NCBI GenBank assembly: GCA_964036195.1
Contig: OZ038450.1
Location: 25,201,208 to 25,265,207 of the forward strand
Reading direction: 5' to 3'
DNA: 64,000 nucleotides
Source: Sphaerolaimus hirsutus
Taxonomy: Eukaryota; Nematoda; Chromadorea; Monhysterida; Sphaerolaimidae
The notes beneath the pieces were generated by a model, which was given only the letters and a program-made list of their open reading frames with translations, searched no databases and was not told where the DNA came from. Numbering within the stretch: the stretch's first letter is position 1; each line of letters begins with the position of its first letter. Below, piece by piece: positions 271 through 27,151 of the stretch. The translations under genes were made by a program, and so were the position numbers.

Positions 271-720
271 TACCGTATTACCTCGAAATACCCCCATGGG
301 GGTTTATTATTTCGCCAGCAAAATTTGAGGGGGGGTTAATTCGAGGGGGGGGGGTTTATTCGAGGGGTTTTTTTTTATTTCGTCAGAAATTTTCGTAAGG
401 ATCGTAGTAAATAGTAGGCATTTGCGTACCCAAAATAGGTAATAAATGTGTCCAAACAGGATATATTTGGACAAAAAACGTAGATATTTAGCTACACAAA
501 CTACTCTATGTGTAGCTGCAATGCAAATTAACAGTAATATACATCATGTACATTGCGTACATGACGTATTTATTATGTACATTAGTACATCATTCCGAAG
601 GGGGGGGGGTATTTCGAGGGGGGGGGGGGTTTATTATTTCCCCAGCCCATTTTGAGGGGGGGTTAATTCGAGGGGGGGGGGGGTTAATTCAAGGGGGGGA
701 TAATTCGAGGTAATACGGTA
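271..720. repeat. MITE family A copy 1 (TACCGTA ends, G-run interior)
   Basis: The segment begins TACCGTATTACCTCGAAATA and ends with the inverse, TCGAGGTAATACGGTA. The subterminal arms are made of repeated TTATTTCG/GGGGGG blocks. At least ten copies of this family lie in the window. Non-autonomous; no transposase is visible. The G-runs make copy length uncertain. Short ORFs across it are not genes. Confidence 0.75.
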
Positions 721-5400: not shown

Positions 5401-8400
5401 CCATCTGTGTTGTTCTGTTTGCTGCTTGGTGAATGTATTTTTTCAATGTCAGTTGCATGTGAAAGTGGAGACAATTTGGCGATTACTTCATGCACACCAA
5501 TTCTTGGATGATTAATTGGAAAATGGGGACAATTGATTTTTTTGGAGTACAAAAACATTACAAAATTCAAAGGCAACAATTGTCTCCACTTTCACCCGGG
5601 GCCAATTTCGCGCCTGGGAAGTGAAAAGTGAATTTGCGAGTGGCAAGGAACTATATAAACAAGCGATAAGAAGCGTTGATTACGGAATGTAATATTTTTA
5701 CAATTAATTTATATTTGAAAGCTAATATGAAATTTAATAGATTAATCAACTATACAGAGCCATCTTCATTCCATTTCGAGTCAGTTCTACCATCCGCAAT
5801 TTTTCTTGTCACTCAATCAGCTGCAAAATCGGCCCAAATCCATCCAAACTTAACCCCATAGCAACCTGACCCAAACCTCACCCAACCAATCAGCATCCAC
5901 CAACCTAATTAACTCCGCCCTTCACACCTGAAACACACAGCGGGCGCACGCGCATCGCAGCGGCGCGCCGCCTTGGGGCAGTCCGGAAGGCAGCGACGGC
6001 GACGGCGACGACCAGGCCGACCTCGACGAGTTCGATGATGATGACGATGATGATTTGGATACGGATGAGGCCAGACGCCGGCGGCTGGCTAGAAAGCGAG
6101 CGCCCGTTGGTTGAGTGCATCCTGGCATGTTGCCAACGTAGTGTGACTTTTTCTCTATATTAATCTTTTTTGACTTATTTCGGTAAATTTCATCCCAAGT
6201 GCTTCTCGATAATGCAATGCTCTATTGTGCTTGTGTGTGGAATAACCGAAGTGCTTCTTTATTATAGTAAACTGTCTTTATATCCCATTCGTAAAACTAC
6301 AGTATTTACTCGAAAAATTCCCATGTGGTCAAAAAGGTGAGGCATGTTTCCATCAACTCATTTCATGCTTCACTCGCAAACATACGTGCCAATTTTGTTC
6401 AAATTTGACAGAACAAATTGATCATATGCCTACAGCTACATGATGGAATTTTTCAATGGGGGAATACTTTTCTTTTCGCTCATCAAACAGGGTGAATTAT
6501 AACAAATAATTCAAGCAAATGTGGTAAATATCTGAGAGTAGATATCTAAATAGTTATCTGATTTCGAGTGCCAGTCACCCCGTTCTTCACAGAAAGTTAC
6601 TGATAAGCCGACAGCAACACGATAAAAAACACTCAACCCCAAATTGTGCCGTATTCCCTTCAGGAAGGCGTGGCAATTCCCCCGCTGACCCTGTGCACCC
6701 TGTCTAAACTGAACAAAACATCCGTGGACGAAAAGTACCCCCACGTGAACATCACACTGGCAGAATTGAGCATAACCAGCTTTATGAGCGCCTACAGGTG
6801 GGAAATGTCAGACATTTTTACCTATCTGAAAAGAGTCTGCGCCTGTACTCGTGTAGAACCGCTACTCATCTAGACCCGGTACTCATCTATACCCCCTCCC
6901 CTCGCAGCCGCAGATGTTGTGGCATGTGCACTGAGCGACTGCACACCGCCCAATGGGTCACACACATCAATTATGCTTGTGGCAGCGGCTGGTTGGCAGT
7001 TGGCACTTTACGCAATCACCTATGTGATTACGAAGCATGCATTGCACATATCTGTGCACAGCGCAGTGATCACATAATCGCGAAACAAACATGCACTGCT
7101 CACAGTTGCGAGTCAGCCGCCGTCGCAAGCATCTTTTTATGTTTTTGCGCGGCACAGCGGTGTGCGTGCAGTCGCGTAGTGCACATAGCACGACATCTGC
7201 GGCTGCGGGGGAGGGGGTATGAATGAGTAGCTGGTCGATCCAGATGAGTGTCGGATCTAGATGAGTAGCGGGTTTAGATGAGTAGCGGGTTTAGATGAGT
7301 AGATGAGAATAAGGCTCAGAAAACTCATTACTATAAACGACAACGCCCTCAAAAGCCGCAAATCGCCCACCCAGCACGAGTCTGATGGACACGACCTACT
7401 TCAACAGGTCGGGCTTCCACGTGGGCGAATTGGAGCAGAGATTGAACGCGGCCATCGGCGGCGGGCACAGACTCAACGCGTTTTTTCACGTAATTTTTTA
7501 CGCGTTGATTTTGAGGCTGAAATTTGTAATGTCAGCGGGTTAGAGAGGCCGTTGATGTAGACGCAATTTCTTTCGAGCCTGTGCCTCTGTGCATGCTTAC
7601 CCGCTGTGCGTGTCTGGGGTATTCTAGATTTTTACCCTCCAGGGTGTTGGTTATCAGATAGCTGATCGCTTCTCTGGAGGTATAGAGAGCTGGAAAAAAA
7701 AAAATTTTTTTTTGGGGGGGGGGGGTTGGGAGTTCGCGAGAGTTCAAGGCTCAAGTTCAGGTATAGGCTTTTTTAAGATCTAGAAAAAAGGTAGAAAAAT
7801 CGCTATAAGTAGGTGAAAAATACTAAAAATGGGTATGTGAGCACATACACTACAAAAATAGCTGAAAGTAGACAATAAAACACCTGAACTAGTGATTTTG
7901 AAGGTGAAAATCTATAAAAAGGTATGAAAATTGGCGATTTTGAGTGAAAATTAGGGTCTACATGCGCACCGGGTTTACACGTACGCACAGAAGGCGTCAG
8001 TCATTTCTTTCGCTGCCGTTCTGTCTTCTCTTCAATTTTTTTCACACATTTTTCATTTGAACATTCCAACTAGCAATACACAAATATCGAATATATCACA
8101 CAGGAAACTGCATTCACGTGCCGAGGTCAATTTCTCGCGTGTTGGTTTCAAAATGCCTACATATTCGATTGTTGCCAAAAGAACGACTTTGTCAATGTGC
8201 GCCGATTTTTGACTCACTCTGGCACATGTTTCGAATTTAGAGTGACCAGGAAAAACAAACAACAGCTGCCAGGTAAGGGGTTGAATATAAGTGAAAGCTA
8301 CCTACAGCCTGATGGCAATCCCGCACCATGTAAACTGTATTTATAATGCAGTGTCAAATTTCATGTGATGTGGCCGCACACAACACACTAGTTTACTAAC

Positions 8401-11400
8401 AGAAGTAAACTTAAATTGTATGCCCATACATCAGCTTTGAACGTATTTGAGTTTACCAGAATACGTTAATTTACATCCTCGTCAACTGTAGTTTACAGAC
8501 ACCTCATTCTGGTAAACTCAAATGCGTTCAAAGCGTATTTATGAGCACCCAAAATGAGTTTACTTCTGTTAGTAAACTAGTGTGTGCAGCGCCAATATGT
8601 GAATAAAATTACCGTATTACCTCGAATTATCCCCCCCTTGAATTAACCCCCCCCCCCCTCGAAATACCCCCCTAAAATTCGGCTGAGGAAATAATAAACC
8701 CCCCCTCGAAATACCCCCCCCTAAAATTGAGTGTAAAGAGAACGTACATGACAAATACCGTAGTTTGTGATCTGTACAATGCAGAACACACGTTAAAGTG
8801 GTGATTAAGTGCATCAATCAATGCAAAATCCAAATTGCGTAAATCAGGGGGGTCGACATCATGCACACCTAGCGTCGCTGCGGACATTGGTGATGCCACA
8901 ATTCTGAATATCTCGAATAAAGACGCATTTGAGGTTAGAATTTATGTATGCCTTGCTGTTTATGCATACCTTCGTGGCGATCTTGTGAGATCTGAGTTCG
9001 TAAAACATAAATATTTGTATATATTAATGTGGTCACGGATACATCACGTTATCATGTTTGGGCAAACTTATATCCCCACTCAGGCTGCCATTGCTGGCAA
9101 ATCGGCAGCTGAAAAATTAGCGCTGAAATTGGTATGGGGAAAAACCAAAAACTCGAGGTTGAAAAGCACAAATCAAACTCCCCATCCATCGAGGAAGAAA
9201 ACGGGAAAGTTAGTAAATTTTCGATATCACGTGTGCCATTTTCCAATATGTTATTCCAAATATCCTGTTATGATATGGTATGTGACTGTTTTAACATTTA
9301 CAAATTCGCCATCGTCAAATGAATTTATTTTAAATTTGAATTTGAAAAATCTCATCGAAATGCATGCTCTTAACAGTAATTGTCTCATGGTTTTAGGGGC
9401 TATGCATGTTATAACATCCAAAAACATGATTAACATGACCTTCCACGATTTCAGCGTACCACTGGACAACGATGGTTCTCCAGAATTGGGACCAACTTCA
9501 AAACGTGTCGCTGAACAGACTACTGGGGTATCGGTTGAAAACTTGGAAGCAAAAAAGGGAGGGATAATTCACACTCAGCTAGTTGACCGAGTTCTCAATG
9601 GTGGTTCGACATCATCAGATGAACAACCCCACAACTCAAACTCTGCCAAGACAGTGGTGACTCCGGGAAATGTCAATGAAATGCCGAAAAATGAAAAAGT
9701 CCCACTTAAGGGTTTGTTTGGGTGGTTTTCCCACATATGTCGACTCCAGTCGGTAGTTTACAATACTGTTACGGTTTCACAAAAAATCTTTATCAAATAT
9801 AATAAATATTTACACACATATGCTCGTGAAATGAATAAAAATAAGCGGAAAAATCGGGAATGTAAAATTATGGAAAAACATCGTGACGTTTTGAGAACTT
9901 TAATATTATACCTCCTCTCAGATCCTGAGTCCCTGTCTGCTCTGGCGCGCAGACGTCGCCTGGCCGCCCTTACCGCTTCTAACTCCAGACTCAGCGGTAT
10001 GAATCTGAAAGGGAGACTTATGGCACATGAAAATAGGGAATACAAAGTAAACGAGATGGCTGAGATTTTGGGTGAGTTGAAACTTCTTTTCATGTTGTTA
10101 AGTGTCGTCATTGTGATTGCTTCATATATCGATTTGAGAGATGTCTGGGCTTACGTTCCTACTCTGAAAAATCTGATAAATCTGAAAAACTGGAAAAATA
10201 TGGAAAATCTTGGAAATATGAAAATACAATTACATACAGTCAGCGTACGCTTTCCGATAGATAAGAGGCGAATTATTACAAATACTCAAAATAATTTACA
10301 AATTACAGCGCCGGGTGATGAGCCCCTGAATATTGATGCTGACTGGCCAAGCCTAAGTGCTGAGATTGGTCGCTTGTACACAGTGGGCGGAGTCGAATTT
10401 AACCCAGAAACCATTTTGAATGAAGTGCACAAATGTTTTTCCAATTTCGACACCACCAACTGTGGGTCGAGGGCGGTGCTAATGATGGGAAATTTAATCC
10501 ATTACTGTTTAATGGAGCAAAGTCAAATCATGCGGTTTAGTCAAAAAGTGAGTCGACTGAACACCTTACAAACTTTGTTATCGATGTTACCTATGGGGGA
10601 AAGGGCCATTACTCTGAAATGTTTGGTTGAATATTTTAAAATGGAACAAACATCCACGGGGGTTTTCCCAATTGGAAGTCACATAAATGCTGGCACATTT
10701 GTAAGGATGTTATTAGGTCAAAAGAATACAGACCCTTCTACTATCATATCTATGCTACACATATATTATCTTCCCTTTTTCACTATGCAGTTTGAAGTTT
10801 TTGTGGCGGCGTTGGCGAGCGCAATGAAGGATGAAATGTCTGGTATTCGCACCAAGGTTGAGACAATTGAAGGAGATATCAACATGCTCATGGACGATAC
10901 CATCAATTTAGACGATAAAGTCACAGAATATGAGAAATCGGTATGTTGGGTATCACATTTTGATACGAGTTTTGCTACGGTAATGTACCATTCTTATATT
11001 ATATTTATGACATTGAAATCAGTGAACTTCAGTAAATATAGACATAGCCTTGAAACTATATGTATTGTGTTCAACAGCACAACTGTAAATTCCGACGAAA
11101 TTGGGGGTGGATATACTGAAACAGAATTGGAAAAAATTAGCTTCATCGGTGGTGTAGTATATATGCAAATACGACATCTAGAAAATAAAATGATTTTTGT
11201 TACTCAATCTTATCAAACACGTTTCACCACATACTTACAGGCTTCGTGCAAGCGCGACGGTATTATGGCGAATATTTTGGAGGTAAAAGACAGAATCTTT
11301 GCGGTTGAATCGAAAATCAGTAGCTATGCGGCGGCGGCATCTTCCAGCTGCTCAAAGGCGGCACCATCAAAGCGCAAGCAGGCAGACGCCCCGGAATCAT

Positions 11401-14400
11401 CGGAATTGGTGGCAAAAAAGGCGAAGTGTGACACGAAAAAAGAGTCTGCGCCGAAGGCAAGTCCTTCAGAAGTTTTCAATTGTTTATATCAAAGTATCTT
11501 ACGTATTGAATACGCCTTGTATTTTTCACATCGAAACATATTTACTGCGAGATTCTTCAATGTGATACATATCTGCAGTACCGACAATACTAGTAACATG
11601 GTGTATACTCCTAAGCTTTATATAAAAATACTAAGCATGATCTATCATTCTTTACAATTGTCAACACACAAATATTTTCATACTTTTCAGATTGTCAAAA
11701 TTTTGAACGGAGTACCGGTTGACTACAGGGGTCGTGACGCACATCAAGATTTGGTTGTGTCGTTATTGGACCCAACAGACCCACTCAGCCCCATGTTCCC
11801 TTGGGGGGTCAATTTGGATGGACAAATGTTCCCATGTGTCGCTCTGGCGCTCATGATGGTGAGATGGGGTTTTCTTGTGATATGGGAAGACTTGGTACAC
11901 TTAAATGCGAAAAATATGTTTAATATTAAAATATGGCGTAAACATAAGAAGCGACAAGATGTTACATTAAATATATATATTCAATTGACGCATTTCTGTT
12001 TTAATCACGCCACTCACATCATCATACAGGCCGAGGCTAAGGCGACAGGGTGTGCTGAATTAGAGAACGGTGTATTTGCGTGCAAACCGTATTTCGTAAA
12101 GCACAATGGTGGGCAATTTGATGCGAAATACTATGACTTTGTCGGACGCTTGAACCCCGCCTGGAATCGAATCTGGCTTTATGAAGTGGGACAAGGTGAA
12201 TCCAGCGCTAACACATGGTTCAACACGGCTACTGGCAATCCCTTTGAGTTGCTCTATGATAGCATTGAAGAGGCAAAGGCTACGCCTGCCTACAAAGCGC
12301 TCAAAAAAGTCCTGACAAATGCACTTTGGATAAACCCACAATTACGGTTAGTAAGCAGGCGATTTACTCATGCAATTATAATATACAGGTCAAAAGTATC
12401 CCCCAAAGACTCATGCTGTACTGTAAATATCAAACAGAAAAGTACTTGGTGCCCTAATTTTACATCGAAACATCTATTCATAACCAAAAGCTTCAAAAAT
12501 GTGTCCTTGCCAAGAAAAATGGGCATTGCTGAGGATATTGATAGATTTATATTGATAATTGATAAGTTATCTAAAGAACGATCCGCCAATGTCGCAAATC
12601 TCAAGTACTACTTACATTCACCACTCAGGCAGCTTTTGTGGCAAACAGGGAAGGATCGAATTGATGGCAAAATTGTTGACAACCCTCGATTTATTCGCGC
12701 GACGGGTTTTTACCCGAACTGTGGCTGGCGCGGCGCCCTGATCTGTGGTGTTGATAAGCTGGCAACAGAGGTGAGTATCTCGGGTATCATTTCAAAAAGT
12801 CCTGCTGGGTGTCTCATGGGAAAGATTTACAATGGCAATCTGGAAGGTGAAAGACAAATACTGAAATTAGTTGAAAATGTTCCTGTACATTATGTTACCA
12901 AATTGAGAACACATTCATTGAAATCTACTGAAAAAGTTCTTAATATTAAAAAGTACCAAAAAGTATCAAAGAGTATCAAAAAGTACAAAAAAGTACCGAA
13001 AAGTACCAAAAAGTATCAAAAACATCAAAAATCTTACAAAATATTGGAAATATATAAAATGGCCTTCCAACACTCCTCAACTATTGTTGTTCTAAATCCA
13101 TCAAAAAGTACCAATAAGGTACAGACGTTTGATCAATACCGGAAAGTGACGAAGAGTACCAAAAAATACAAAAGGGTACCAATAGATACAATAGGGTGGC
13201 AAGAAATACCTAAAACTATCGATAATTTCCAAAAAGTACCAAAGGTGCCAAAAAGTACCAAAAAGTATCAAAAGTACCAAAGAGTACCAAAAAGTACCAA
13301 AGAGTATCGAAAGTACCAAAAAGTACCAGAAAGTACCAAAAAGTACCGAAAAGTACTGAGAGTACCAAAAAGTATCAAAAAGTACCAAAAAGTACCAAAA
13401 ATTATCAAAATGCTCAAAACAGTTCTAGCATGGTTGTGCATCCAAAAATGCTGAAAAATGGTATTGGTAAAGTCTGTATTTTTAATAATATAAATCTAAC
13501 CTTGTTTCTTGTACTTGCTCTACTGAATACAACAGATGCTTGTTTTATGAAGGCGGCGCTGAGTACAACGGTGGGGCGCAACTACAAGGCACCGTTCATG
13601 AATTTATGGGGTGAAGCACTGATGGAGTTGCGTGTGAAATTGTCTGAAAAATGGGCATACAAAAAACGCAATGACAAGGGAGTATGGGTTCAGTTGAAAG
13701 AGTATGGCACATTTGATAATTTTAACAAAAGCGGACACTGGAAAATAACTGACCCAAATGGAGTAAACAAAAACGTCAACTTGATTTTGCAAAATCCGAA
13801 CAGGGTTAGTGTCCCGTTTACAAAAATTCGTTTCAGCTTTTGCTATCAGAATGTCAAAAAACCATTGTCAGAATCTACCTTCCCATCACATTTGTACTGT
13901 CATTCTGTAAATGTTTTTACAAATACTAATATTGATATACCTTTCTACACAACAAAATCTGTCCAGAATGCTCAGTTTAAAACATCTGATTTATGGACAA
14001 TGATTCTAAATCATATAATTTTTCAGACTGGCCGTGGCCGAGGTCGCGGCAGGGGAGCGCCCCGCGGCGGTCAGAATAGCGGCTCTATCCTGCCGCCCTC
14101 GTATTTCCGAGGAGGGAATTCCACCAGAAATCGTGCTTACAATCGTGGGTCGTCCTTTGGCGCCTTTAGAGGTCGTGGCAGCACTTCGGCTACCCCCCAA
14201 CAAAGTGCCTTCATGATGACAAAGTTTGACAGTGTGACTGAGCCAACCATGGAAGATGACAATTCACTCGAAGATGTAACTGAATCACTTTTTACGGAGG
14301 CTAAAAGTTCCGAAGAGGTGAAAAATGGTTGGTCAATCCCCATAAATATCTTTTTACTTAAAATTTTGAATAAACTACAAAATACCTTGCTAATTACTCT

Positions 14401-17400
14401 GCCAACTTCAAGTAACAATATTACCATATTTACATTGACTTCAAGTAAATATATGTTCGAAAATATGTTTCGCATACTGAGAAAAAACACTCCTAATGCG
14501 GCATACGTGGAACTATCTAAATACTCAATACTTTCAGGTGATGCCGATTGGAAAACTGTGAACGCACGAATAAACGAGCTGATGAATATGGTGAATCGCA
14601 AAAAACCTGGCGCGGCGGCAGACATGGAAGCTGTATGTGAGGAAGAACAAAGCGTGTTTGATGCTGCTGAAAATATGAAAACTCCGGCGCCCGATGTCAA
14701 TCTAAATGAAAGCAATGACATGTTTGATGATGGTGCTATTTTTGATGAGGACACTGAATTCGGTGAGCTAAGTTTCACTCTTGCTTCCTACTTGCTCCAA
14801 CATATCGTGCGTGTCAATACCTTGTTACACAACTACATTGTATCCAACGTAAAGATTTGGGATCTAATATCAGCCAGAAATAATTATGTGATACCTTCTC
14901 TACATAACGGTATTAGATTTAAGTATATGCTTATGGGGCGAAAAACGAAAAAACCATTTACTAAAGTTTATGTTTATGAGTATCATATCGATCTGGCTTA
15001 CTTCTCTAATCTCGTTCAAATCACTAACACGCATACAGATTCACCAGAACCGCCGGTCTGTACGAACGTCATCAACACTGCGGCACCCCCACAGGCTAGT
15101 ACCTCTGAAGAAGTGGGATGTTCCAGTACATCAGCAGGCACATGTCAACCTGAAAATGTTATTTCTCAGGTACGTATGGGCCTGAGTGAATATAGGGGGA
15201 TGCATCGCGAAGTGGCATGCTCTCTGTCTCCGGATTTTGTGGAAATGTGCGATTTAAGTGCCAAATCGCAATCTAAAGTCGCCAAATTCCTCAAGTCATC
15301 AATTTTGAGATGTGAAATGCCGGTTCAAAAATTGATGCGTGATTCTTCGCTGGGCAACACCCTGCTGGCGCCTCTCACTGTGCTGCGCCGTATCAAAATA
15401 TTGGCTCCGTTCGGCCCCCAGATGGGGTTTCGAGCGTCTGATGGAAAAAATATGTTTGGCGTCATTGATGACTTCAAACCCGCAAAAATCTCATCCATGA
15501 ATTATTTCTACACTGTCCTCATGACTGGCGACAGCACGAGTGTGGCATTGAAGTCTGAGCTGTTGCGCCGCGCTCAAATTGACAACATGAACGTTCATGT
15601 CAATTCGACAGGGACACTCTACAGTGGACAAAGACTCAACTGCATAGGAACATGCCTGAAATACAACAAAATCAAAACCGCTTTTGATGCAATATTTGTC
15701 AGGGCGATCCTGGATAGCACGGACCTTGAGCTATCCACAGCTACGGGCGTGCAGGGTGTGAATATAAGGGATAACTTTCTGATGCCAGTCAGCAACCTTT
15801 TGCGCGCTGTTGAAAATTCAGGCTCAATCAATATGCAACCACATGGGCGGCTCATTTTGAGCTTGATTGGCCCCACACTCCCAGATTACAACTACTCAGT
15901 GTGGAGTGAAGAACTTGCTGGAGAATTGTTCTATTTCTATCTTGACTTAGAACAACAAATGATTGATTTCTTAAAAGTTCGTCACAGTCAAGTAATGGTG
16001 TTGCCAGTTATGAGCTTCTGTCTGACCAAATACAAAGAAATGGGGCTCCACTCCCCTGTGGAGGCCATGACTAACATGATTGCGAGAGATGGTTTGCACA
16101 CCTCTCAAACTGGGGTCAAAGTTCTAGGATACCTCATGCTGAAAACTCTAAAAAATATGTCAGTTGATTTTTCTACTTGGAATGATTTCCATTTTTTGGT
16201 AAAGAAAATTGTTGATTTGGCACTGAATCAAACACTCCTCCTGAATACCATGTGCACAAGAAACATGTGGATTTACAGTACCTATCGGAGAAGTGTACAT
16301 ATCTATATTTATGTGAATATAAAATTTTTAGGAAAGGTGTTCAATAGATCAAGGGGGGTATACTTCAAATTTCCTATGATATCACATGTACAGTACAATG
16401 ATATCACATATCTTTCAGGTTGCGGCAACCCGAAAGCGGCGAGCAGAATTGAAAAAGAAAAAAGCCGACGATCAGCACTCAATCAAGACGTTTTTGGCAA
16501 AAGTCCAATAATTAACGGTTTGTCCCTATCTTTTTCAAATATACTGAATCGGTTACAAAATAGATTGGACAAAATATATAGTAGCAGTTTTCATGCTTTC
16601 TGGTTCATCTCTACTGTATCACACATCAATCCTCATTACTTTAAAAAATGCTTTAAAGCGTACTTTTGTACTGAAACAATATCAAATGTGGTAGATTTCG
16701 AAATAATAATTACCACACGTCAATACAATAAAACTGAGGGTACAAATTTAGTCTATGGTATCAACGGTAACACAATTGTTTACACAAATATGCAACTGCG
16801 CAGGCAATTCGTTCTTGGGCAGTTTTTTGAGCCATTTCAGCATTGCTTGGCAGAAGGGCAGCGTGATATTGACTGCATTTTGAGACAATTTGAAAACTTG
16901 AGGAATTTGACGCGCTCTCGACACATTATCTGTTTTTTTATACCATTTTACATTTGTGTTACTTACTTTGTCATGTATAGAATCACGAAAGTTTCAGGAG
17001 TCAAGCTGATATGTCACATTATAGTAAAAAAATGCGTAAACTTGAGATTACAAAGTTTATGCGTAAGATGTGATTCTACACATACCTCAAAGGTTGATCG
17101 ATATTTACATTTTCTTTGCGCGAATGTGCAGCTGCTTGCATATATTTATTGGTGCTCAAAAATGTCTACAAATTCTACAAATTTTACAATTTATGTGTAT
17201 TTAATTGTGAAACGACACCTACATGAATGTGTTGTTAGCATTGCGGAAGTAATTTTTAGCATTGCGAAGGTGATATTTATCAGGTGTAGACAAATGGCGC
17301 TAGTTTTATCTAATTCGAAAATTGTGGCGCGTGCATTTTTTGGCGCCGTTGCCCCATACTCGCTTTTCTGTACTTTCCTTTATTTGCAATCTGAGCATTA

Positions 17401-20400
17401 TTTTTTGAAATGGATGGAGATCATGCTAATTCATCTGATATACAGCAACTTCTTAAAACTCTCAAATAACGCAGTCCTGTTGAATAACCTTACGACTCCA
17501 TCTATCTCAAACAAACATGGTGGGTCAAATAAACTGGCATTTTTTAGTTGTATTTTTATCTTTATGCTTAACTTTGGGATCTCAACAGCCACAAACACTG
17601 TGGCTGGGTCAGTTGCGACTTTCTCTATCATGGAAACGATGGCCTTAACAGTACTTTATCAAAATGTACGCTGCCTTAATCGTCAATACAATGCTCTACT
17701 TGAGACCATTTTGCGATCAGGTGCTGACATACTATGCTTTAGTGAAACTCAGCATTCAGATAGATCTGAGGTTGCAAATATCGGTGGTTATCAATCAGTC
17801 CACACATTCAAAAGTGAGAAAGGCACTGGGGGTCTTTCAATATACGTAAGAAAGGGATTGTATTTCACCCTTAATAAGGTGGATTCTGAGGTACGTCAAA
17901 ATATTTTAAATATAAAAATTGGACAAACAAGGGATGTGAATGCCTCGCACGGTAAAAAGCGCTTTTCCCCAGTTCGTGACACAAAACTAAATGTGATAGT
18001 TGCATATCTAGAAAACAATTCAAAAGCAAAATCCTATGCACCAGCATTGAAATTAAATACTAAAATATTGTCTGAATTGAGCCGATGTGTGTCGAGCAGT
18101 ACTAGAAACGGAGAACATCTATTGATAGCGGGGGACTTCAATGGACATATTGGTAATGATCTCGTAGGGATCTCAGGTAATAACAGAGAGATAAATGAGA
18201 ATGGACATCTAGTACGGGAATTCATACTTGATAATAACCTGGACTTGCTCAACAAATACATGGATGGCTTATGGACATTTGAAAGGAAAAATGCACGCTC
18301 GATAATAGATCTGTGCTTAACTACAGAGAAGGATTTAATGTCTAGAGGGACTATAGATGAATGTAATGAAATAAGTGCAATACAATCAGATCACAATGCT
18401 ATGATTGTGACATTACAACTACAAGTGGACACACTGACATACACCAATCGATTCGTCAGACCAAAAAGTATCAAACAAAAAAGGGAATTTACATCGAAGA
18501 TGGAAAAATCTAACTTAAGAACCTATGATAACGCAGTATCGGAGATCAATAGGCAAAACATACAATCAATAAGGTTGAGAGATACGATGTTCCAAGAGAT
18601 CTGATTAAACAGGGGAGAAAAATAGCCAAACTTCGAAGAAAAATCAAAAGAATAAACATGGTTGGTACTACAATCGGCACAACAGAGCGAAATCTACTCT
18701 TCCAAAGTCTACGTGAAGAACGTGCTACATTATCCAGAATGAAAATGGAAATTGAAAGACAAAAGAAAGATAAAGAATTAGAAAATCTACTCAAAAGCGG
18801 TGGCTCGACACATATAAACATGATTTATAAAAAGGTCAATGAAATACGCAATGACAACAAATGTGTTCTACACACAATATATAACGGGGATGGTGATCCA
18901 GTAACATCCAAAGAAAGTATGAATACAGAATTGAAGGCAGCTTGGGATGTGGTCATGGAAAAAAACCCGGGGATGGAGATATCCAGAGTTGATCCAACGT
19001 CAGTAAGAGCTGTTATCACCTCAAGAAAACAACAAAAGAAATTAGAAGATCAGATATCATACATAGAAGTGGAATTGGCTATACACGATCTCAAAAACAA
19101 CAAATCAGGGGGTACTACTTCTGTCTATCATGAACATCTAAAACTACTTGGTGTTGAGCATGTCGACCAACTAGTAGAGTTGTACAACCAGTGGTGGAAT
19201 GGGACTGAAATCCCAGACAATGCAGCTTTATGCAAAATGATGTTGTTGCACAAAAAGGGTGACAAAGGAAATTTGAAAAACTACAGAACACTCGGAGTGT
19301 CATGTAATATTAAAAAAGTTTACATGTCATTAATAAACAAACGCCTAATGCGATGGTTAGAAGATACAAACGCTCTAACAGAGATGCAAGGAGGATTCAG
19401 ACCTGGTAGACGGACTCTTGATAATGTACAGATTTTGAAGTCATGTTATAACTATGCTGTTGTGAATGGTAATGAGTTTGTTACGTGCTTTGTAGATGCT
19501 GTTAAAGCATTCGATCGAGTTGACAGAGCCAAACTTTGGTTGAAAATGTCACATATGGGAGTGCCCAATGTGCTAATTCAAGCTATCGCAAATGTTTATA
19601 CGAAAACTAAGGCCGTAATGACCTATGCTGGGTATGAGAGTGATCAACTAGACTACCCAATAGGAGTAGCACAAGGCTGTGCGCTAAGCCCAACTCTGTA
19701 CGCAATATATATACATGATCTGGCCGAAAAATTGCTTGCAACCGGCTGTGGCTCAAAATGTGGAAGATCAGCTACAAGAATCCCAGCTCTATTCTTTGCA
19801 GATGATATAGTGCTCATGGCAGGTAAAGATAGTGATCTGGAGACACTCATCAACACGTTTAGCGTATGGGCATGGACATGGAGTGTGTCAATAAATCCAT
19901 CAAAAAGTGAAGTTCTGAGGTGGGGTACCTCTAAACGACCGAAAAAAGACTGGATTCTCAAAAGTGGAGATCCGGGTGACTCCTCTGTGACAATACTAAA
20001 GGAAACAGACAGTATACGGTATCTGGGGATACAAATAAACAGAGGTATTGATCCCTTCTCGGAGCATAAATCAAACAGGCTCATAAAAATGAGACAGCTA
20101 CGTAGTCTAGCTCTGGCGGCAGCCAAGAACTCTATATCACCATTATACCATGGCAAAATAACATGGAAAGCGTATGTGGAACCAGCCAGTATGTATGGTG
20201 TAGAAGTAACAGGTCTCACACCCTCGCAACTGAACGATATGGACAAAATATATATACAGACAATGAAAAGAATAGCAAGACTACCCAACAGTGCTAGCAG
20301 TGCTAGCCTGCTATACGACTTGGATGGGGTATTACCATCAGATAAATATGATCAGTTGACTCTGACATACAATAATTACATGTCACGAATTGATAAAAAC

Positions 20401-23400
20401 AGATGGCTATATCAAGCCTGGGAAGTAGATGCCTCACTAGCTGGGAATCCAAGATTAAAAATAGATAACACAAATCAGACATTGGTGAATTTTGCCAAAA
20501 GTAGAAAAGATTTCAATATAGATACAGGGCAATTAAGGAATCTGGATCTTAAAAATATGATATATATCAAGAGACGAGGTATGACACTAACAACGTTGAA
20601 AAGTCAATCAGCTCTAAAATATAGGCATGGAGAGAGAACAGGGGTGGAAATAAAAGGTCTTCACTATAATGAACTAAATTGGTTAGCTGCAAGATATAAT
20701 GCTCTACGAACTAGAGGCAAAAAAGGCCATAAGTTATGTAGCCTATGTTCTAACATCTATATAAAGGTGGTAGCAAACTTACACCACATTCTGCATGTAT
20801 GCCCAGGAAGTGAGCACATTAGAGATAAATGCAGGGCAACGGCATGCACAGTTCCGTGTGCATGGGAGTTAAATCCTCTAGGATCTACAGTCTGTCATGC
20901 ACATAGAAAATGTTTGGATAAACTTTTGGTATATGGGACAAGCCACCTACACGATAGATAGAATTTGGAAAATCCTGCATTTGTACCATCGTATGACATC
21001 ATAGGGATAATATAGGAAGGGCGCAACCCTTCAAGGGTAGGGCCCTGGATCCTGATAACAAAGAAATAAAAAAAAAAATAAAAAAGTGACGTTAGGGAAG
21101 GGCTTATGTGTATATACAGTTATATATGCATATAAACACATATACATATACGTAATTGTTCGATTTTTCTACGTCTGCGTATGGGGAATTTCTGAAAATT
21201 TCTGGCGAATTAATAGACCCCCCCTCGAATAAACCCCCCCCTCGAATTATCCCCCCCTCAAATTTTGCTGGCGAAATAATAAACCCCCTGGGGGTATTTC
21301 GAGGTAATACGGTAAATAGGTAGGTAAAAAAAGTTATTACCGAACTTTTGACATTGTAACTTCAAATTGTATTGTAATTGCAAATTTGTACCACATTTTA
21401 CATGTCATTTGACAATTTACATCACACTTTACAAGGAATTTCAAAAAATTTGGGTTCGGGTATCGGGTCCAAAAAGTTAGGTCCTGGTTCGGGTTTGGGT
21501 ATTGGGGTCGGGGGTCGGGTATCGGGTTCGGGTCGGTTTCCCAACCCTACCTTACAGGATGCGGAATTGCAACCCGTTGATGAGAAAATGCACACTTGAA
21601 ATACTTCAAAATAAATCACACTTCAATCACCCCCCCCCCCTCATGACAGGCCCCGTGGGGGGCATGGGCTTCGTGTACTGGTACCCCAACTCGCACCTGC
21701 TCGACACCGCCTACAACTCGTACGACGAGCACGCGGTGCACGTGTACATGTCGCCGCTGGACGCCATGTTGGAGAAGAACCCCACCGTGCTGCCCGTGGG
21801 CTACCACGCGCATATTGCGCTCAGGGCTACCAAGACTATCAGGTGGGGGGGGGGGGGGGGGGTTGACTGTTTTGGCGTTTCAAAAATGGGTGATTTTCAG
21901 AAAATATGTAAAAAAATTTAATCATATCTGTCTAAAAAAACCTGTAGTAAATATAAATAACATGTTTATATTTTTTTCAAGAATATTCTGGATGGACATA
22001 ACGCTATACAATGAATGATACCATATTTTGATGAATAAGGTCAGGTTAAAAATTTTGCAACAAAATAACCAAAAGTGGGAGCACTTTGATGTGATGAGAA
22101 TTTTTTTATGTCTGTTCATTTATTCAGATAGAATATGGTAGATTTGGCTCCGCACCTGTACGCACAAACGCCCGGCGCGCACAAACGCCTGGCACGCACA
22201 AAATGAAAGTCCGGTGCGCACAAACGCCCGGTAAGCACGTTTGTGCCTACCGGACTTTCATTTTGTGCGTGCCAGGCGTTTGTGCGCGCCGGGCGTTTGT
22301 GCGTAGGAGGCCTGGCCCGTAGATTTCATTGTAAGGTGTGAGGTCAGTATACCATAAAACATCATTAAACCTCCACACAAAAACCCCTATTGAAAATGTA
22401 GTTAAAAAGATATAAGATCATTTATATTCAAAAATATTAATCTCCTGAGATTTTTATGTGGTGCAGTAGCGAAGTCAGTCTCAAAATACACCATAAACAT
22501 TTTCCACAAATTAACTTTAGTTCATTTTCAAAAAGTGAACCACCACACAACTTAGGCAAAAAATGGACCACCTGGGGCGGGCGGCGTGCACGTCTCCCAA
22601 GCTGAAGTACTTCGACGAGTACACGTACGAGGCCTGTCAAGTCGAGTGTCTAGTTGACGCCGTGCTGGAAAGGTGCAACTGCACTGGTCGGTCGATTGAC
22701 GGGCATTTTAATTGAGATTTTTAATTGCGAACGGCAGCCAATTTCACGAGTAACTGTGGCAAATAAAAATTTCCCACTTTTCAAGTTTTTATGTATCCGC
22801 TAGAAACAACACTCAAAAATATTTTTTCTAGGGAGATTCGTAGACGTTTTTGAATTTTCGATCTTTCTCTCGGTATTTTCGGCTGAAAATGCCTATAAAT
22901 TGCAGAAACACAATTCAAAACATCTATTTGACACTACTGATCTATTCATAGCGGGCAGAACAAAAATTTGTGCAAATGTTCTGGGGAAACAGTTTGGACA
23001 GCCCCAGGGGTCTCCTAGGCTGGGGGCGGGGCTGCCCCCCATATCAGCCAGCTATCTAAATATCTATCCCGGAGGCAATTTTTTGGCTATCTATCCTCAA
23101 ATCGGCCAGCTATCTACCTATCTGGAGCGATTTTTGAGGAATTTTGCCCCAATTTTCGCCCCAAGTCGCTAGAATCCCCATTCTGGGTTCTATGCATTGG
23201 AAAAGCCTTATTGAAAAAGCTTTTTATTTTGCCAATGCGAGCCCCCCCCCCCCGAAAATTTTTCAGCCATCTATCCCTCCGGAGGAGCGATTTGCTATCT
23301 ATCCAGCCCCCGCGAGGGGCAAAATCTTGGAGACCCCTGGACAGCAGTACAACATAGGTAAATAGGTATATATTCCAAATTTCAGTAGAAAATCAAAAGT

Positions 23401-26400: not shown

Positions 26401-27151
26401 CCGACATTGTTTTAACGTGTGTTCTGCAGTACACAGAACACAAACTACAGTTATTGTCATGTACGTTCCCTTTACACTCAATTTGGGGGGGGTATTTCGA
26501 GGGGGGGGGGGTGATTGTTTCATAGTGGTCTCGAGAGGGGGGGGGGTCAAACGAGGGGGGGGGGGGTATTTCAAGGGGGGGGGTATTTCGAGGAAATACG
26601 GTAAATGGTAATAAATGGGACCAAATAAATACTTGGACATATCAAAGTAAATAGCTAGCGGCGATCATTGCACACATGATGTCAATACCTTATTCCAGAC
26701 GGGGGCGGGGCGGGGCGGGGCGGGGGGGGGGGTGGTTCTTCAGTCAGCTCGCTCAGACTTTGGGGTATTTCGAGGGGGGTTCATGCAAGGGGGGCATTCC
26801 GAGGGTGGTGCATTCAATTGCAAGGGTATTTCAAGGAAAAACGTTACATTTATGCTGCGACAGCAATGTCCTTTTTTACCTACACCCCAGCCAAACAACA
26901 CCAAAACAACAAAAACCACGCTCACAGGCGGCGGCGGCGAGAGCGACACGGACACGGAGTGGGACGCGGCGACGGCGGCCATGTCCGGCCTGGTGGGGCG
27001 GCGTGCCAGCTACCTGGCCATGGTGCCGCGCGGCAGCATCGAACAGCCGCCCGACGCGCAGAGGCGGCACGGCGACGGCGACGCGACAACTACAGCTACT
27101 GCAGGCAAGCCGAATAGTGTGGAGGATAGGGAACACGTGTGGAAGTTCTGA
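2476..27151 (+). CDS. DEG/ENaC-family cation channel subunit, 13 visible exons
   Basis: Members are trimeric sodium-permeable channels of the plasma membrane. Exons: 2476-2625, 3439-3588, 4938-5084 (or from 4990), 5941-6105 (or 6109), 6664-6797, 7375-7489 (or 7538), 21650-21842, 22556-22686, 23602-23832, 24150-24220, 24516-24661, 25552-25748, 26928-27151. Exon 1 has the N-terminal gating motif TTFHGFD. Exon 2 encodes TM1 (WVLTMCTVFVIVFVQL). Exon 5 has IPPLTLC, matching the post-TM1 FPAVTxC motif. Exons 8-9 hold the cysteine-rich extracellular part. Exon 11 encodes TM2 with GGCMGLWTGASIVT, including the selectivity-filter GAS. Exons 12-13 are a cytoplasmic tail ending at TGA 27149-27151. The start is the first in-frame ATG; an acceptor at 2445-2446 (CTCAG) would make this an internal exon instead. 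Joins 7 through 13 agree in phase. The 6/7 join does not unless the weaker donor at 7539 is used. The cysteine-bearing segment expected between exons 6 and 7 is not visible. Confidence 0.88.
3439..3588 (+). CDS. Channel exon 2: first transmembrane helix
   Basis: Fifty codons bounded by GCCGCAG before and GTGAGT after, both phase 0. The product runs from LVHTEGWW through a hydrophobic helix to TSIRLVYPE, the usual juxtamembrane and TM1 layout of DEG/ENaC subunits. Joined to exon 1 it continues HGFDQ directly into LVHTEG. Nearly every codon ends in G or C, as in the other exons of this gene. Confidence 0.88.
3718..3917. other. Assembly gap of 200 N in channel intron 2
   Basis: Exactly 200 unknown bases. 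A 37-base sequence (TACTCACATATTTAAATC...TAGAAA, two mismatches) lies directly left of the gap at 3681-3717 and again at 3956-3992. The gap therefore covers a family-A repeat whose right end (TCGAGGAAATACGGTA) is seen at about 3942-3957. The true size is unknown. Confidence 0.95.
4152..4501. repeat. MITE with 30-bp terminal inverted repeats
   Basis: AAGCCGGAGTTACAGCATAA at the left is mirrored by TTATGCTGTAACTCCGGCTT at the right, and the match continues inward (CGATAAATAG / CTATTTATCG). Internally GAAATTTCGCTATTTGTCGG-type arms pair again around 4230-4290. About 350 bp, non-coding, inside channel intron 2. Confidence 0.75.
4938..6109 (+). CDS. Channel exons 3 and 4: acidic then polybasic insert after TM1
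   Basis: Exon 3 (4938 or 4990 to 5084) and exon 4 (5941 to 6105 or 6109) fall between TM1 and the IPPLTLC motif. In the G/C-ending frame they encode an acidic stretch (DADVNADYAYDDE, later EFDDDDDDDLDTDE) followed by ARRRRLARKR. A second frame is also open through both exons, with phases that fit 4990 and 6109, but its codon use is unlike the rest of the gene. Exon 2 (end phase 0) could also splice directly to exon 5 (start phase 0), so the insert may be optional. Confidence 0.6.
6866..7305. repeat. Inverted-repeat element in channel intron 5
   Basis: Left arm CTACTCATCTAGACCCG and CCCCCTCCCCTCGCAGCCGC are mirrored on the right by GCGGCTGCGGGGGAGGGGG and repeated CGGGTTTAGATGAGTAG units. The centre (about 6915-7190) has its own paired GATTACGAAG/CACATAGG segments. 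No coding content. Confidence 0.65.
7539..8371. other. Intronic stretch with no gene seen
   Basis: AT-rich intron sequence between the last visible channel exon before the retroelement and the next repeat. I searched it for the missing cysteine-rich channel exon and found no stretch with the right phase, codon bias and CxxFN-like motif. Confidence 0.5.
8372..8593. repeat. Inverted-repeat element, CACACTAGTTTAC type
   Basis: Begins GGCCGCACACAACACACTAG and ends CTAGTGTGTGCAGCGCC. The arms pair through AGTTTACTAACAGAAGTAAAC / GTTTACTTCTGTTAGTAAAC. A MITE of the same group as those at 25075-25317, 28159-28401 and 34530-34671. Confidence 0.75.
8610..8800. repeat. Left half of a family-A MITE split by the retroelement
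   Basis: Starts TTACCGTATTACCTCGAATT and runs inward through AGAACGTACATGACAAATAC and TGCAGAACACACGTTAAA, which is the reverse complement of the interior of the intact copy at 26143-26603. It stops abruptly at about 8800. The rest of this copy is at 21083-21314. Confidence 0.75.
8805..16503 (+). CDS. ORF1-type protein of the retroelement, intron-containing, SGNH esterase-like domain
   Basis: Exons by splice signal and phase: 8805-8933, 9084-9208, 9455-9711, 9922-10071, 10309-10547, 10791-10940, 11241-11456, 11691-11858, 12030-12346, 12629-12770, 13553-13804, 14027-14327, 14538-14762, 15039 to about 16160, then 16419-16503. Visible parts: a predicted coiled coil (10791-10940 and 11241-11330, MKDEMSGIRTKVETIEGDI), lysine/arginine clusters like NLSs (SKRKQ and KKAK, 11370-11450), an RGG-type box (GRGRGRGRGAPRGG, 14033-14074), acidic segments, and at 15200-16160 a domain with GDS (15527-15535) and DGLH (16087-16098), the block I and block V residues of SGNH/GDSL esterases. 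Known family role: nucleic-acid binding partner of the endonuclease/RT. No start codon is seen. The middle domains are not recognised. Confidence 0.65.
8934..15038 (+). other. Series of thirteen introns, twelve stop-free and multiples of three
   Basis: Introns and lengths: 8934-9083 (150), 9209-9454 (246), 9712-9921 (210), 10072-10308 (237), 10548-10790 (243), 10941-11240 (300), 11457-11690 (234, GC-AG donor GCAAGT), 11859-12029 (171), 12347-12628 (282), 12771-13552 (782), 13805-14026 (222), 14328-14537 (210), 14763-15038 (276). All except the 782-nt one divide by three, enter and leave in the same phase, and have no stop in the exon frame, although they are as AT-rich as normal introns. Donors are mostly GTGAGT/GTTAGT/GTATGT and acceptors are (T)CAG/ACAG. 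Host-gene introns in this window are full of stops. Confidence 0.8.
12941..13412 (+). repeat. Tandem AAAGTACCAAA-type repeat in the retroelement
   Basis: A degenerate array of about 10-12 nt units (AAAAAGTACC / AAAAAGTATC), interrupted near 13035-13100 and again around 13180-13220. It lies in the one intron that is not a multiple of three, just before the point where the open frame changes (13430-13454). Confidence 0.8.
16504..17631 (+). other. Stop-free linker between ORF1 region and endonuclease
   Basis: This 1.1-kb AT-rich stretch stays open in the frame that leads into the endonuclease. One piece looks exonic: about 16803-16925, after an acceptor CTGCGCAG, encoding QFVLGQFFEPFQHCLAEGQR and a basic tail. 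The rest reads like intron. Whether ORF1 and the endonuclease are separate proteins after splicing cannot be settled from sequence. Confidence 0.45.
17632..18604 (+). CDS. APE-type endonuclease domain of the retroelement
   Basis: About 323 codons in the frame that begins upstream at 13430. The catalytic motifs of the exonuclease-endonuclease-phosphatase fold are present: QNVRCL (Asn), CFSETQ (Glu), AGDFNGHIG (Asp/Asn), SIIDLCLT (Asp) and QSDHNAMIV (terminal Ser-Asp-His). It nicks the target DNA to prime reverse transcription. ATG at 17632 is a plausible start if a spliced RNA is used. The frame ends at TGA 18602 while the next frame, already open from 18553, continues into the RT, so endonuclease and RT are separated by a one-base frameshift. 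All catalytic residues appear intact. Confidence 0.85.
18553..20961 (+). CDS. Reverse transcriptase of the non-LTR retroelement
   Basis: Open from 18553; ATG at 18658 gives 767 aa. Motifs in order (residues counted from 18658): LHKKGDKGNLKNYR (about 197), QGGFRPGRRTLDN (about 245), motif A CFVDAVKAFDRV (about 283), motif B GVAQGCALSPTLY (about 340), motif C FFADDIVLM (about 380), motif D SINPSKSE, motif E IRYLGIQI. C-terminal CSLC...H...C near residue 695 is the CCHC finger of LINE ORF2 proteins. No RNase H domain is seen. It copies element RNA at the nicked target. The catalytic FADD is intact and there is no internal stop, so the copy is recent or maintained. Confidence 0.93.
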   Translation, partial: AKHTINKVERYDVPRDLIKQGRKIAKLRRKIKRINMVGTTIGTTERNLLFQSLREERATLSRMKMEIERQKKDKELENLLKSGGSTHINMIYKKVNEIRNDNKCVLHTIYNGDGDPVTSKESMNTELKAAWDVVMEKNPGMEISRVDPTSVRAVITSRKQQKKLEDQISYIEVELAIHDLKNNKSGGTTSVYHEHLKLLGVEHVDQLVELYNQWWNGTEIPDNAALCKMMLLHKKGDKGNLKNYRTLGVSCNIKKVYMSLINKRLMRWLEDTNALTEMQGGFRPGRRTLDNVQILKSCYNYAVVNGNEFVTCFVDAVKAFDRVDRAKLWLKMSHMGVPNVLIQAIANVYTKTKAVMTYAGYESDQLDYPIGVAQGCALSPTLYAIYIHDLAEKLLATGCGSKCGRSATRIPALFFADDIVLMAGKDSDLETLINTFSVWAWTWSVSINPSKSEVLRWGTSKRPKKDWILKSGDPGDSSVTILKETDSIRYLGIQINRGIDPFSEHKSNRLIKMRQLRSLALAAAKNSISPLYHGKITWKAYVEPASMYGVEVTGLTPSQLNDMDKIYIQTMKRIARLPNSASSASLLYDLDGVLPSDKYDQLTLTYNNYMSRIDKNRWLYQAWEVDASLAGNPRLKIDNTNQTLVNFAKSRKDFNIDTGQLRNLDLKNMIYIKRRGMTLTTLKSQSALKYRHGERTGVEIKGLHYNELNWLAARYNALRTRGKKGHKLCSLCSNIYIKVVANLHHILHVCPGSEHIRDKCRATACTVPCAWELNPLGSTVCHAHRKCLDKLLVYGTSHLHDR
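20962..21085 (+). other. 3' UTR and A-rich tail of the retroelement
   Basis: A short stretch follows the RT stop, containing a small hairpin (GGGCGCAACCCTTCAAGGGTAGGGCCC, which folds on AACCCTT/AAGGGT), then GATAACAAAGAAATAAAAAA. A 3' hairpin plus A-rich tail is typical of LINE 3' ends used for target-primed reverse transcription. Confidence 0.6.
21083..21314. repeat. Right half of the family-A MITE split by the retroelement
   Basis: GTGACGTTAGGG and, later, CGATTTTTCTACGTCTGCGT match the interior of the intact family-A copy at 26143-26603, read in the same orientation as the left half at 8610-8800. It ends TCGAGGTAATACGGTA at 21314. Confidence 0.7.
21650..23832 (+). CDS. Channel exons 7-9: extracellular domain
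   Basis: Exon 7 (21650-21842, after CATGACAG) encodes a segment ending VLPVGYHAHIALRATKTIR, the palm region before the cysteine-rich part. Exon 8 (22556-22686) gives RAACTSPKLKYF and then C...C...C at ACQVECLVDAVLERCNC. Exon 9 (23602-23832) continues the disulphide region (CSPSMAIECY, CRGDNCVEACEYWSYSS). Joins 7/8 (AG|G) and 8/9 (G|GC) restore Arg and Gly codons. The cysteine order matches the thumb region of DEG/ENaC subunits. Confidence 0.85.
22157..22305. repeat. Near-perfect palindrome with about 60-bp arms
   Basis: The left arm (ACGCACAAACGCCCGGCGCG... to AAAGTCCGGT) is repeated in reverse complement on the right (ACCGGACTTTC... to GGGCGTTTGTGCGT). The spacer is about 25-30 bp and is itself partly complementary. 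GCACAAACGCC recurs within each arm. It is in channel intron 7. It could form a long hairpin or cruciform. Confidence 0.85.
22995..23345. repeat. CTATCTATC-rich inverted-repeat element
   Basis: Bounded by CCAGGGGTCTCC at the left and GGAGACCCCTGG at the right, with several CTATCTATCC and CGGCCAGCTATCTA units inside. The same words recur at 36366-36400 and 53385-53445. Confidence 0.65.
24150..24661 (+). CDS. Channel exons 10-11: pre-TM2 strand and TM2 pore
   Basis: Exon 10 (24150-24220) encodes HALIIGDIYFEEIQYTEVTQ, like the conserved INIYYExLxYExxxQ segment before TM2. Exon 11 (24516-24661) encodes VETFISALGGCMGLWTGAS, then IVTWIHLAYWCCVRSC. GLWTGAS contains the G-A-S selectivity filter of DEG/ENaC channels. 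A donor at 24662 (GTTGGA) ends phase 2 and joins exon 12 in the G/C-ending frame; the alternative GT at 24660 would not. Confidence 0.88.
24928..25507. repeat. Family-A MITE interrupted by a second MITE
   Basis: Starts TACCGTATTTCCTCGAAATA and ends TACGGTA at 25507. Between 25075 and 25317 a CACACTAGTTTTCACC-type element interrupts it: family-A sequence stops at CCCAGTACTAAT and resumes at TTTGTCATTTGTAACG, as in the uninterrupted copies. Confidence 0.75.
25075..25317. repeat. CACACTAGTTTTCACC-type MITE, nested
   Basis: Left end GCCTACACACACTAGTTTTC and right end GAAAACTAGTGTGTGTAGGG are inverse. The arms pair through CACCGTGACTTC / ACTCACGGTG. Nearly the same sequence is found at 28159-28401. 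Confidence 0.85.
25552..27151 (+). CDS. Channel exons 12-13: cytoplasmic C-terminal tail
   Basis: Exon 12 (25552-25748) encodes LTKLCLSPRPGTTLNESG and an Asn/Thr-rich stretch. Exon 13 (26928-27151, after CGCTCACAG) adds Gly-rich and acidic GGGESDTDTEWD, then a low-complexity tail ending EDREHVWKF and TGA. The frame was chosen because almost all codons end in G or C; two other frames are also open. No PDZ-type end or PY motif is seen. Confidence 0.75.
26143..26603. repeat. Intact family-A MITE (reference copy)
   Basis: TACCGTATTTCCTCGAAATA at the left and TCGAGGAAATACGGTA at the right. G-run subterminal blocks surround a unique core containing CGTACGCAGACGTCGAAAAA and AACGTGTGTTCTGCAGTACA. 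Used here as the reference for the split and nested copies. Confidence 0.85.

Follow-up and report, generated by a model that had tools for sequence, protein, structure and literature searches.

The element in the window and its relatives

The window analysed here, a stretch of 64,000 nucleotides (nt) of contig OZ038450.1 of the nematode Sphaerolaimus hirsutus, carries on its plus strand, at about 8830..21085, what is, judged by its domains and ends, a decayed copy of a long interspersed nuclear element (LINE). This study concerns the introns in the first open reading frame (ORF1) of this element, which in its intact relatives are spanned by a single frame running on into the endonuclease and the reverse transcriptase. 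The extent of the copy was not given in the preliminary description of this DNA, made from the letters of the window alone; its 5' limit was set by eye against the spliced protein of a related copy, C2a. The copy is 5'-truncated, lacking the leader and the start codon, and its A-rich 3' end consists of a AACCCTTCAAGGGTAGGGCCCTG stretch and an A-run, both common to C2a and a further copy, C3. An APE-type endonuclease domain (17663..18403, +; Pfam PF03372, 4.7e-8, and PF14529, 5.6e-11, both over the cut-off) lies upstream of a reverse transcriptase domain (19252..20037, +; Pfam RVT_1, 6.6e-29). These domains and their order, the absence of long terminal repeats (LTRs), the 3' A-tail and the occurrence of 5'-truncated copies (the window copy and copy C4x) are features of the LINE class. 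A search of the endonuclease stretch against PDB gave no match at 0.01, and no relatives of the reverse transcriptase were found in the viral contigs searched.

Three open frames cover the window copy, at 8805-13454, 13226-18604 and 18553-20961, the third carrying the reverse transcriptase. The first agrees with the preliminary description, which had let the second begin at 13430 instead of 13226. The frame has been lost at two places, within a AAAAAGTACC array in intron 10 and between endonuclease and reverse transcriptase, where two open frames overlap (18553..18604, +); neither break is present in nine intact copies of the element. The array is a minisatellite at 13229-13410. Inverted repeats are found near both ends of the LINE copy (8383-8585 and 22159-22305), with arms of 80 nt (88% complementary) and 68 nt (97% complementary), and C-rich repeats of the CCCCCCCTCGAATTAACCCCC type, or their complement, which flank it on both sides, are dispersed in the window (329-367, 656-699, 8615-8721, 21202-21288, 26558-26593 and 60319-60366).

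The relatives were retrieved by a search based on the reverse transcriptase in the assembly to which the window belongs (348 Mb, 762 contigs), in which the best 58 of 1,255 candidates, those most similar to the reverse transcriptase of the window, were scored. Among these 58 the frame containing the reverse transcriptase exceeds 1,300 codons in 35 copies and 4,000 codons in nine. Ten copies were fetched: C14, which is closely related to the window copy, and these nine, here called intact. The intact copies were thus picked for long frames, and the 58 scored copies served as a check on that bias. The 5' parts of two further copies, C4x and C9x, were also retrieved. Each of the nine consists of one uninterrupted frame of 4,226-4,609 codons, or 3,974-4,401 codons from the ATG of ORF1, and in eight of them the distance from the endonuclease motif to the stop is 1,085-1,107 codons, which is shorter than the frames of over 1,300 codons in the 35 scored copies. 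C2a and C3 are identical and ungapped at 13,164 of 13,221 frame positions, within a shared stretch of about 13.36 kb that ends in an A-run and of which the frame covers 99%, and their flanks are unrelated, with different sequences at the start and at the end. They therefore represent a LINE that has recently moved. L033 (G000:C1:15368000-15377900), a LINE of this genome that is more distantly related, is open over at least 3,276 codons and shows the same pattern of inserts, and an RVT_1 search yielded, among the matches listed, other frames of non-LTR size with 2,895-3,531 codons.

Introns of ORF1

Thirteen introns were placed in ORF1, by spliced alignment with a dynamic programme of our own, at junctions common to the copies, and a fourteenth near the end of ORF1 is treated below. 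In the window copy, all on the plus strand, introns 1 to 6 lie at 8934..9083 (150 nt), 9209..9454 (246 nt), 9712..9921 (210 nt), 10072..10308 (237 nt), 10548..10790 (243 nt) and 10941..11240 (300 nt). They are followed by intron 7 (11457..11690, 234 nt), a GC-AG intron and the least surely placed site, and by introns 8 (11859..12029, 171 nt), 9 (12347..12628, 282 nt), 11 (13805..14026, 222 nt), 12 (14328..14537, 210 nt) and 13 (14763..15038, 276 nt). All twelve have a length divisible by three (3n) and are free of stops in the exon frame, with a GC content of 0.30-0.37. Intron 10 (12771..13552, 782 nt, 3n+2), which holds the minisatellite, was delimited by hand with our own choice of acceptor; the frame is open in it up to 13454, and in the eight of the nine intact copies that have this intron its length is 3n.

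Several observations indicate that these segments are introns. Their phases agree across the copies, single sites apart: intron 7 differs in C2a/C3, and introns 3 and 12 differ in C16. In four of the nine intact copies (C723, C286, C7a and C16) the placement of intron 7 is poor, and there it was omitted. Eight copies provide 106 surely placed introns, counting the last intron. GT begins every one of them; 90 have G at +5 and 79 a G at -1, 100 end in CAG and 103 have a pyrimidine at -5. As the caller favours consensus sites, the shared position of the junctions weighs more than this consensus. In addition, judged against C286, introns 9 and 10 have been exactly lost from C13, as expected if a partly spliced RNA had once been copied. 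Gain of introns is not claimed, since clean splice sites are missing from an additional in-frame segment of C723, and those of such segments in C7b and C16 are weak.

Introns that are open in the reading frame and divergent in sequence

The preliminary description had listed thirteen introns (1 to 13 here), twelve of them 3n and stop-free, and had judged their openness beyond chance. The twelve are recovered with the same lengths and without any in-frame stop, a result whose log10 P under a first-order Markov model is -26.7. The remaining one, intron 10, carries four stops in the window copy, the only stops in the exon frame of the thirteen introns, whose other two frames hold 86 and 73; its 3n length is thus a property of the intact relatives and not of the window copy. 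Introns of three neighbouring host genes had been said to lack the property. The one host intron examined, 588 nt long and belonging to a Dicer-like gene, contains 18 stops when read in the exon frame, and its other two frames contain 9 and 7. The 3n length is not independent evidence, because introns between exons of one open frame must have it, and the weight therefore rests on the absence of stops.

Counting 3n and stop-free introns in other genomic copies, the check proposed in the preliminary description, gave the same picture in the nine intact copies: all 111 surely placed introns among introns 1 to 13 are 3n, and their 8,864 codons hold no stop, against 648 and 672 in the other two frames. 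That description had named intron segments as rich in stops and indels as neutral DNA as grounds for its refutation; these copies, picked for long frames, do not show them. Leaving out C3, the near-duplicate of C2a, gives 98 of 98 introns 3n and no stop in 7,789 codons (572 and 587 in the other frames). A raw count that included four doubtful segments and left out seven segments of the caller gave 114 of 115 introns 3n and no stop in 9,154 codons (671 and 697 in the other frames), with a log10 P of -253 that is not to be taken literally, because the copies were selected for long frames. Its sole case that is not 3n, a segment of 239 nt in C7a, is one half of a split made by the caller; the final count drops all eleven doubtful segments, all of which lie inside the same open frame. 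In the 5'-truncated C4x, the introns downstream of about locus position 4,190 are stop-free and 3n up to the last one, which is 3n+1. Chance is ruled out as the cause by the Markov probability in the window and by the stop counts in the intact copies. A reassignment of stop codons is also unlikely, since TAA, TAG and TGA are absent from the frame of the ORF alone and common in the other two.

In sequence, these introns are poorly conserved. Between C7a and C286, the one pair compared, the identity of introns 1-6 is 0.65-0.72, against 0.61-0.70 for shuffled sequences. Between C2a and C3, nonsynonymous and synonymous codon changes number 22 and 4 in introns, 2 and 6 in ORF1 exons, 3 and 1 in the linker that follows ORF1, and 5 and 8 in the endonuclease-reverse transcriptase part; these are small numbers from a single pair, compared without a formal test. 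Selection in the introns appears to see stops and frame, and not residues.

A last intron whose removal would switch the frame

Two results go beyond the preliminary description, namely that each intact copy is one single frame and that ORF1 has a fourteenth intron whose length is not a multiple of three. In the window this intron, placed by hand from homology, lies at 16163..16418 (+) and measures 256 nt (3n+1), the unspliced frame being open through it. The length is 3n+1 in all eleven alignable copies, i.e. the nine intact ones, C4x (187 nt) and the window copy. Removal of this intron therefore changes the reading frame. In L033, the first AG after the donor would give a last intron of 58 nt, also 3n+1, and other AGs give other lengths.

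In the spliced frame, the terminal exon of ORF1 (16419..16511, +) encodes VAATRKRRAELKKKKADDQHSIKTFLAKVQ and then a stop, with a basic stretch and a PIP-box-like QxxIxxFL. The same tail is found in the nine intact copies, the window copy and C4x: [VA]xxTRKR[RQ], a basic run and Q-x-x-I-x-x-F-[LM], with the stop at most five residues later and 29-31 residues past the junction of the last intron. The basic run and the likeness to a PIP box, the PCNA-binding motif, are assigned by their pattern and scored by no tool. The tail of L033 differs and has a looser PIP-like LPLSQYF. Over the 15 residues after the last intron the mean pairwise identity in eight copies is 0.52 in the spliced frame, against 0.23 in the unspliced one.

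The exon upstream of the switch (15039..16162, +) resembles an SGNH/GDSL esterase, with TGDSTS near 15523 and RDGLH near 16085, and the motifs GDST and RDGLH are present in all eight other copies. The GDS and DxxH blocks are presumably marks of this esterase family. The best Pfam values for the domain, 0.078 and 0.15, each in one of six members, are below the cut-off, and a profile search against PDB gave no useful match for the SGNH fold. Read by eye, the spliced ORF1 protein may comprise a coiled coil, a central domain, an RGG-rich stretch, the esterase-like domain and, at its end, the basic PIP-like stretch. Sequence searches of Pfam and PDB did not back a NADAR-like fold, which had been considered for the central domain.

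Linker, hydrophobic block and leader

Between ORF1 and the endonuclease lies a hypervariable linker (16512..17525, +, in the window), open in the unspliced frame and reaching a hydrophobic block at about 17530-17590. In eight copies there is no stop in the ORF frame of the linker, the last intron or the leader, whereas the other two frames hold 253 and 274, 36 and 39, and 133 and 132, respectively; the unspliced frame thus meets no stop on its way from the leader to the endonuclease, across last intron and linker. Differences in the hydrophobic block, sorted by codon position, number 42, 6 and 85 among five copies, a constraint at the protein level which suggests that this stretch is translated. 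A start codon just before the endonuclease was considered and rejected, as none of the methionines in the 150 residues that precede its motif lies at a distance common to all nine copies. A 2A-like cleavage between ORF1 and the endonuclease-reverse transcriptase was rejected as well, no NPGP being found in eight copies.

In the leader, TACTAAC lies at the ATG of ORF1 or at most three bases from it in eight of eight copies. The leaders of the intact copies (e.g. L009:1070-2008) also hold one to four NFI-like TTGGC(N4-5)GCCAA palindromes each.

A proposed scheme of two messages from one transcript

We infer from the frame, splice-site and conservation patterns observed in these copies that two RNAs are made from the element, that the unspliced one is translated and that its product is the source of the endonuclease and reverse transcriptase. 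We consider it probable that this APE-type LINE uses one transcript as two mRNAs, splicing deciding between the ORF1 protein alone and a fusion of ORF1, endonuclease and reverse transcriptase. Removal of all introns would yield a compact ORF1 protein of about 1,300 amino acids, the excision of the 3n+1 last intron shifting the frame into the basic, PIP-box-like tail and its stop. In the unspliced RNA, the thirteen other introns would be read through as 3n, stop-free segments and the last intron would keep the genomic frame, so that a ribosome could cross introns and linker into the endonuclease and reverse transcriptase and produce a fusion of about 4,000-4,400 residues. The same unspliced RNA would double as the template of retrotransposition, which would be why the introns persist. 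The preliminary description had already proposed that the unspliced RNA is translated while splicing yields a compact protein; the copies support this and refine it, in that splicing would yield ORF1 alone, closed by its own stop.

LINE proteins show cis-preference: the RNA on which each of them acts is the one that encoded it. If this applies here, the template would have to be translatable, and selection would purge stops and frame-shifting indels from the introns while largely ignoring their residues. All the intact copies examined retain introns, and only C13 has lost some of them, so that the templates would have been mostly unspliced. With slightly less assurance, we favour the view that these segments form a class of spliceosomal introns selected only for translatability: in this LINE group, about thirteen per element would diverge freely in sequence and length, stops and frameshifts being purged because the unspliced RNA would itself serve as a message exceeding 4,000 codons. 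The one 3n+1 intron would act as the switch between structural protein and enzyme.

Several points weigh against this explanation. The fusion, with about 1,000 intron-encoded residues and the linker, would have to be tolerated or cleaved, and the hydrophobic block before the endonuclease is signal-peptide-like by eye (e.g. KWFQLVLFMSLFTPVNA in C13), which is odd for a nuclear enzyme. The stop-free leader is rich in ATGs (39 in frame, 53 and 32 out of frame) and holds short upstream ORFs, and the favoured explanation leaves both its openness and the entry of ribosomes unaccounted for; a cap-scanning start in the leader was considered and rejected, as out-of-frame ATGs are not depleted and the upstream ORFs are short and mostly unlike each other. 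The references of the spliced alignment already held the spliced tail, which biases the alignment towards that tail. In C4x, five caller segments upstream of about 4,190 carry stops and were taken as flank beyond the truncation, and the caller introns of L033 are unreliable, some of them not being 3n. C14, whose frame is broken, and C9x gave no alignment over ORF1 and are neutral either way.

The absence of stops and the 3n lengths would also be accounted for, with no functional fusion, if escape from nonsense-mediated decay required that a pioneer round of translation meet no premature stop in the unspliced RNA. The giant product would then be a by-product, and the endonuclease and reverse transcriptase would be made otherwise. 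In ciliates the constraint described is the opposite one: short introns of 3n length are under-represented and carry many in-frame stops, through which retained introns are destroyed (as outlined in PMC5014332). Such a surveillance shield alone needs no endonuclease and reverse transcriptase in frame, yet the nine intact copies reach them without an intervening stop, the linker stays open and a methionine at a shared distance before the endonuclease is missing; we regard it as unlikely. The enzymes could instead be obtained by an alternative splice that joins a donor further upstream with an acceptor close to the endonuclease, the unspliced frame being a relic or a coincidence, and by eye an AG of the same codon phase does follow the hydrophobic block in most copies. 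This would leave the open introns unexplained, and the block upstream of that AG is conserved as protein in five copies; moreover, a join of the fourteenth donor to these AGs is out of frame, because the donor is in phase 0 and the AGs are in phase 1. We give such a splice very little credence.

Two further readings make the intron-encoded residues part of the regular product. If the long unspliced protein were the main product, as with exitrons, which are likewise stop-free and 3n (PMC4494720, in outline), the residues of the introns would matter and splicing would generate internally deleted variants. The introns are AT-rich and barely alignable in the pair tested, nonsynonymous changes prevail in the other pair, and the retained segments would split conserved exons, which makes this reading highly improbable. 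The intact copies, open throughout, could even be thought to encode a giant polyprotein with variable low-complexity spacers and no introns at all. That reading is hardly credible and was rejected: it is contradicted by the splice consensus at shared junctions, by the exact loss of two segments in C13 and by the conserved tail, readable only once the 3n+1 segment has been removed.

Relation to known systems

The closest parallels to the proposed use of two messages are found in LTR elements. In the barley Ty1-copia element BARE1, a single ORF contains one intron of 104 nt whose splicing shifts the frame, so that a stop soon follows and Gag only is produced (as described in PMC3735527). The frame-shifting intron near the end of the structural gene, the nearby stop and, as proposed here, an unspliced RNA encoding structural protein and enzyme are alike in both, although BARE1 is a Ty1-copia LTR element with one intron, while the present element is a LINE with thirteen further 3n, stop-free introns and a PIP-box-like ORF1 tail. 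Likewise, in EVD/ATCOPIA93 a spliced short RNA (shGAG) gives Gag and the unspliced RNA is flGAG-POL (PMC8892269), a division similar to the one suggested by the present sequences; EVD differs in being an LTR element whose splicing is tied to premature polyadenylation, and the description given there includes no set of translatable introns.

Exitrons are stop-free, enriched for 3n sizes, translated if retained, GC-rich and mostly subject to synonymous changes (according to the account in PMC4494720). The LINE introns share the absence of stops and, the fourteenth site (3n+1) apart, the 3n length, two of four features, and differ in the other two; on GC content and substitution pattern, the latter from the single pair C2a/C3, their assignment to exitrons was rejected. 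Whereas exitrons evolve like exons, the LINE introns are AT-rich, apparently free in their residues and situated in a mobile element, at thirteen junctions. Among LINEs, ZfL2-1 also has an esterase-like ORF1 upstream of endonuclease and reverse transcriptase; its summary mentions no introns (PMC3905857), and in the present element membership of the esterase family was not set by score. Human L1 RNA has functional splice sites and its spliced forms (SpIREs) can integrate, while the success of L1 relies on full-length RNA (as outlined in PMC5860796); here, in contrast, the introns appear to be selected for translatability. No report of LINEs with translatable introns was found among the matches listed in a search of open-licence PMC papers for exact words and phrases.

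If the proposed scheme holds, a retroelement would keep many introns through a life cycle of RNA copying by making them readable, and its copies would provide a sequence-level record, repeated many times over, of the translation of unspliced RNA. It would represent the LINE counterpart of the splice-controlled choice between Gag and Gag-Pol, and a natural test of cis-preference in which the template is the message. The element could also serve as a test bed for the export and translation of a fully unspliced RNA and for its tolerance under nonsense-mediated decay.

Neighbouring and other loci

The Dicer-like host gene that provided the control intron occupies 31268-63572 on the minus strand; by eye, exons for RNase III were recognised near 31.3-32.6 kb and one for a helicase near 63.2-63.6 kb. 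Also on the minus strand, at 41046-43547, a frame of 833 codons, Gag/protease-like by eye, apparently belongs to an LTR element. Elsewhere in the genome, an LTR retroelement (L032, G000:C16:23412100-23422000) has, by eye, zinc-knuckle, membrane-protein-like, protease and reverse transcriptase-RNase H parts in one frame, which measures 4,837 codons at two loci (C3:21887261 and C16:23421047). The mitochondrial cox1 frame contains 14 TGA codons and, at conserved positions, reads AGA as Ser and AAA as Lys, which fits the invertebrate code 5.

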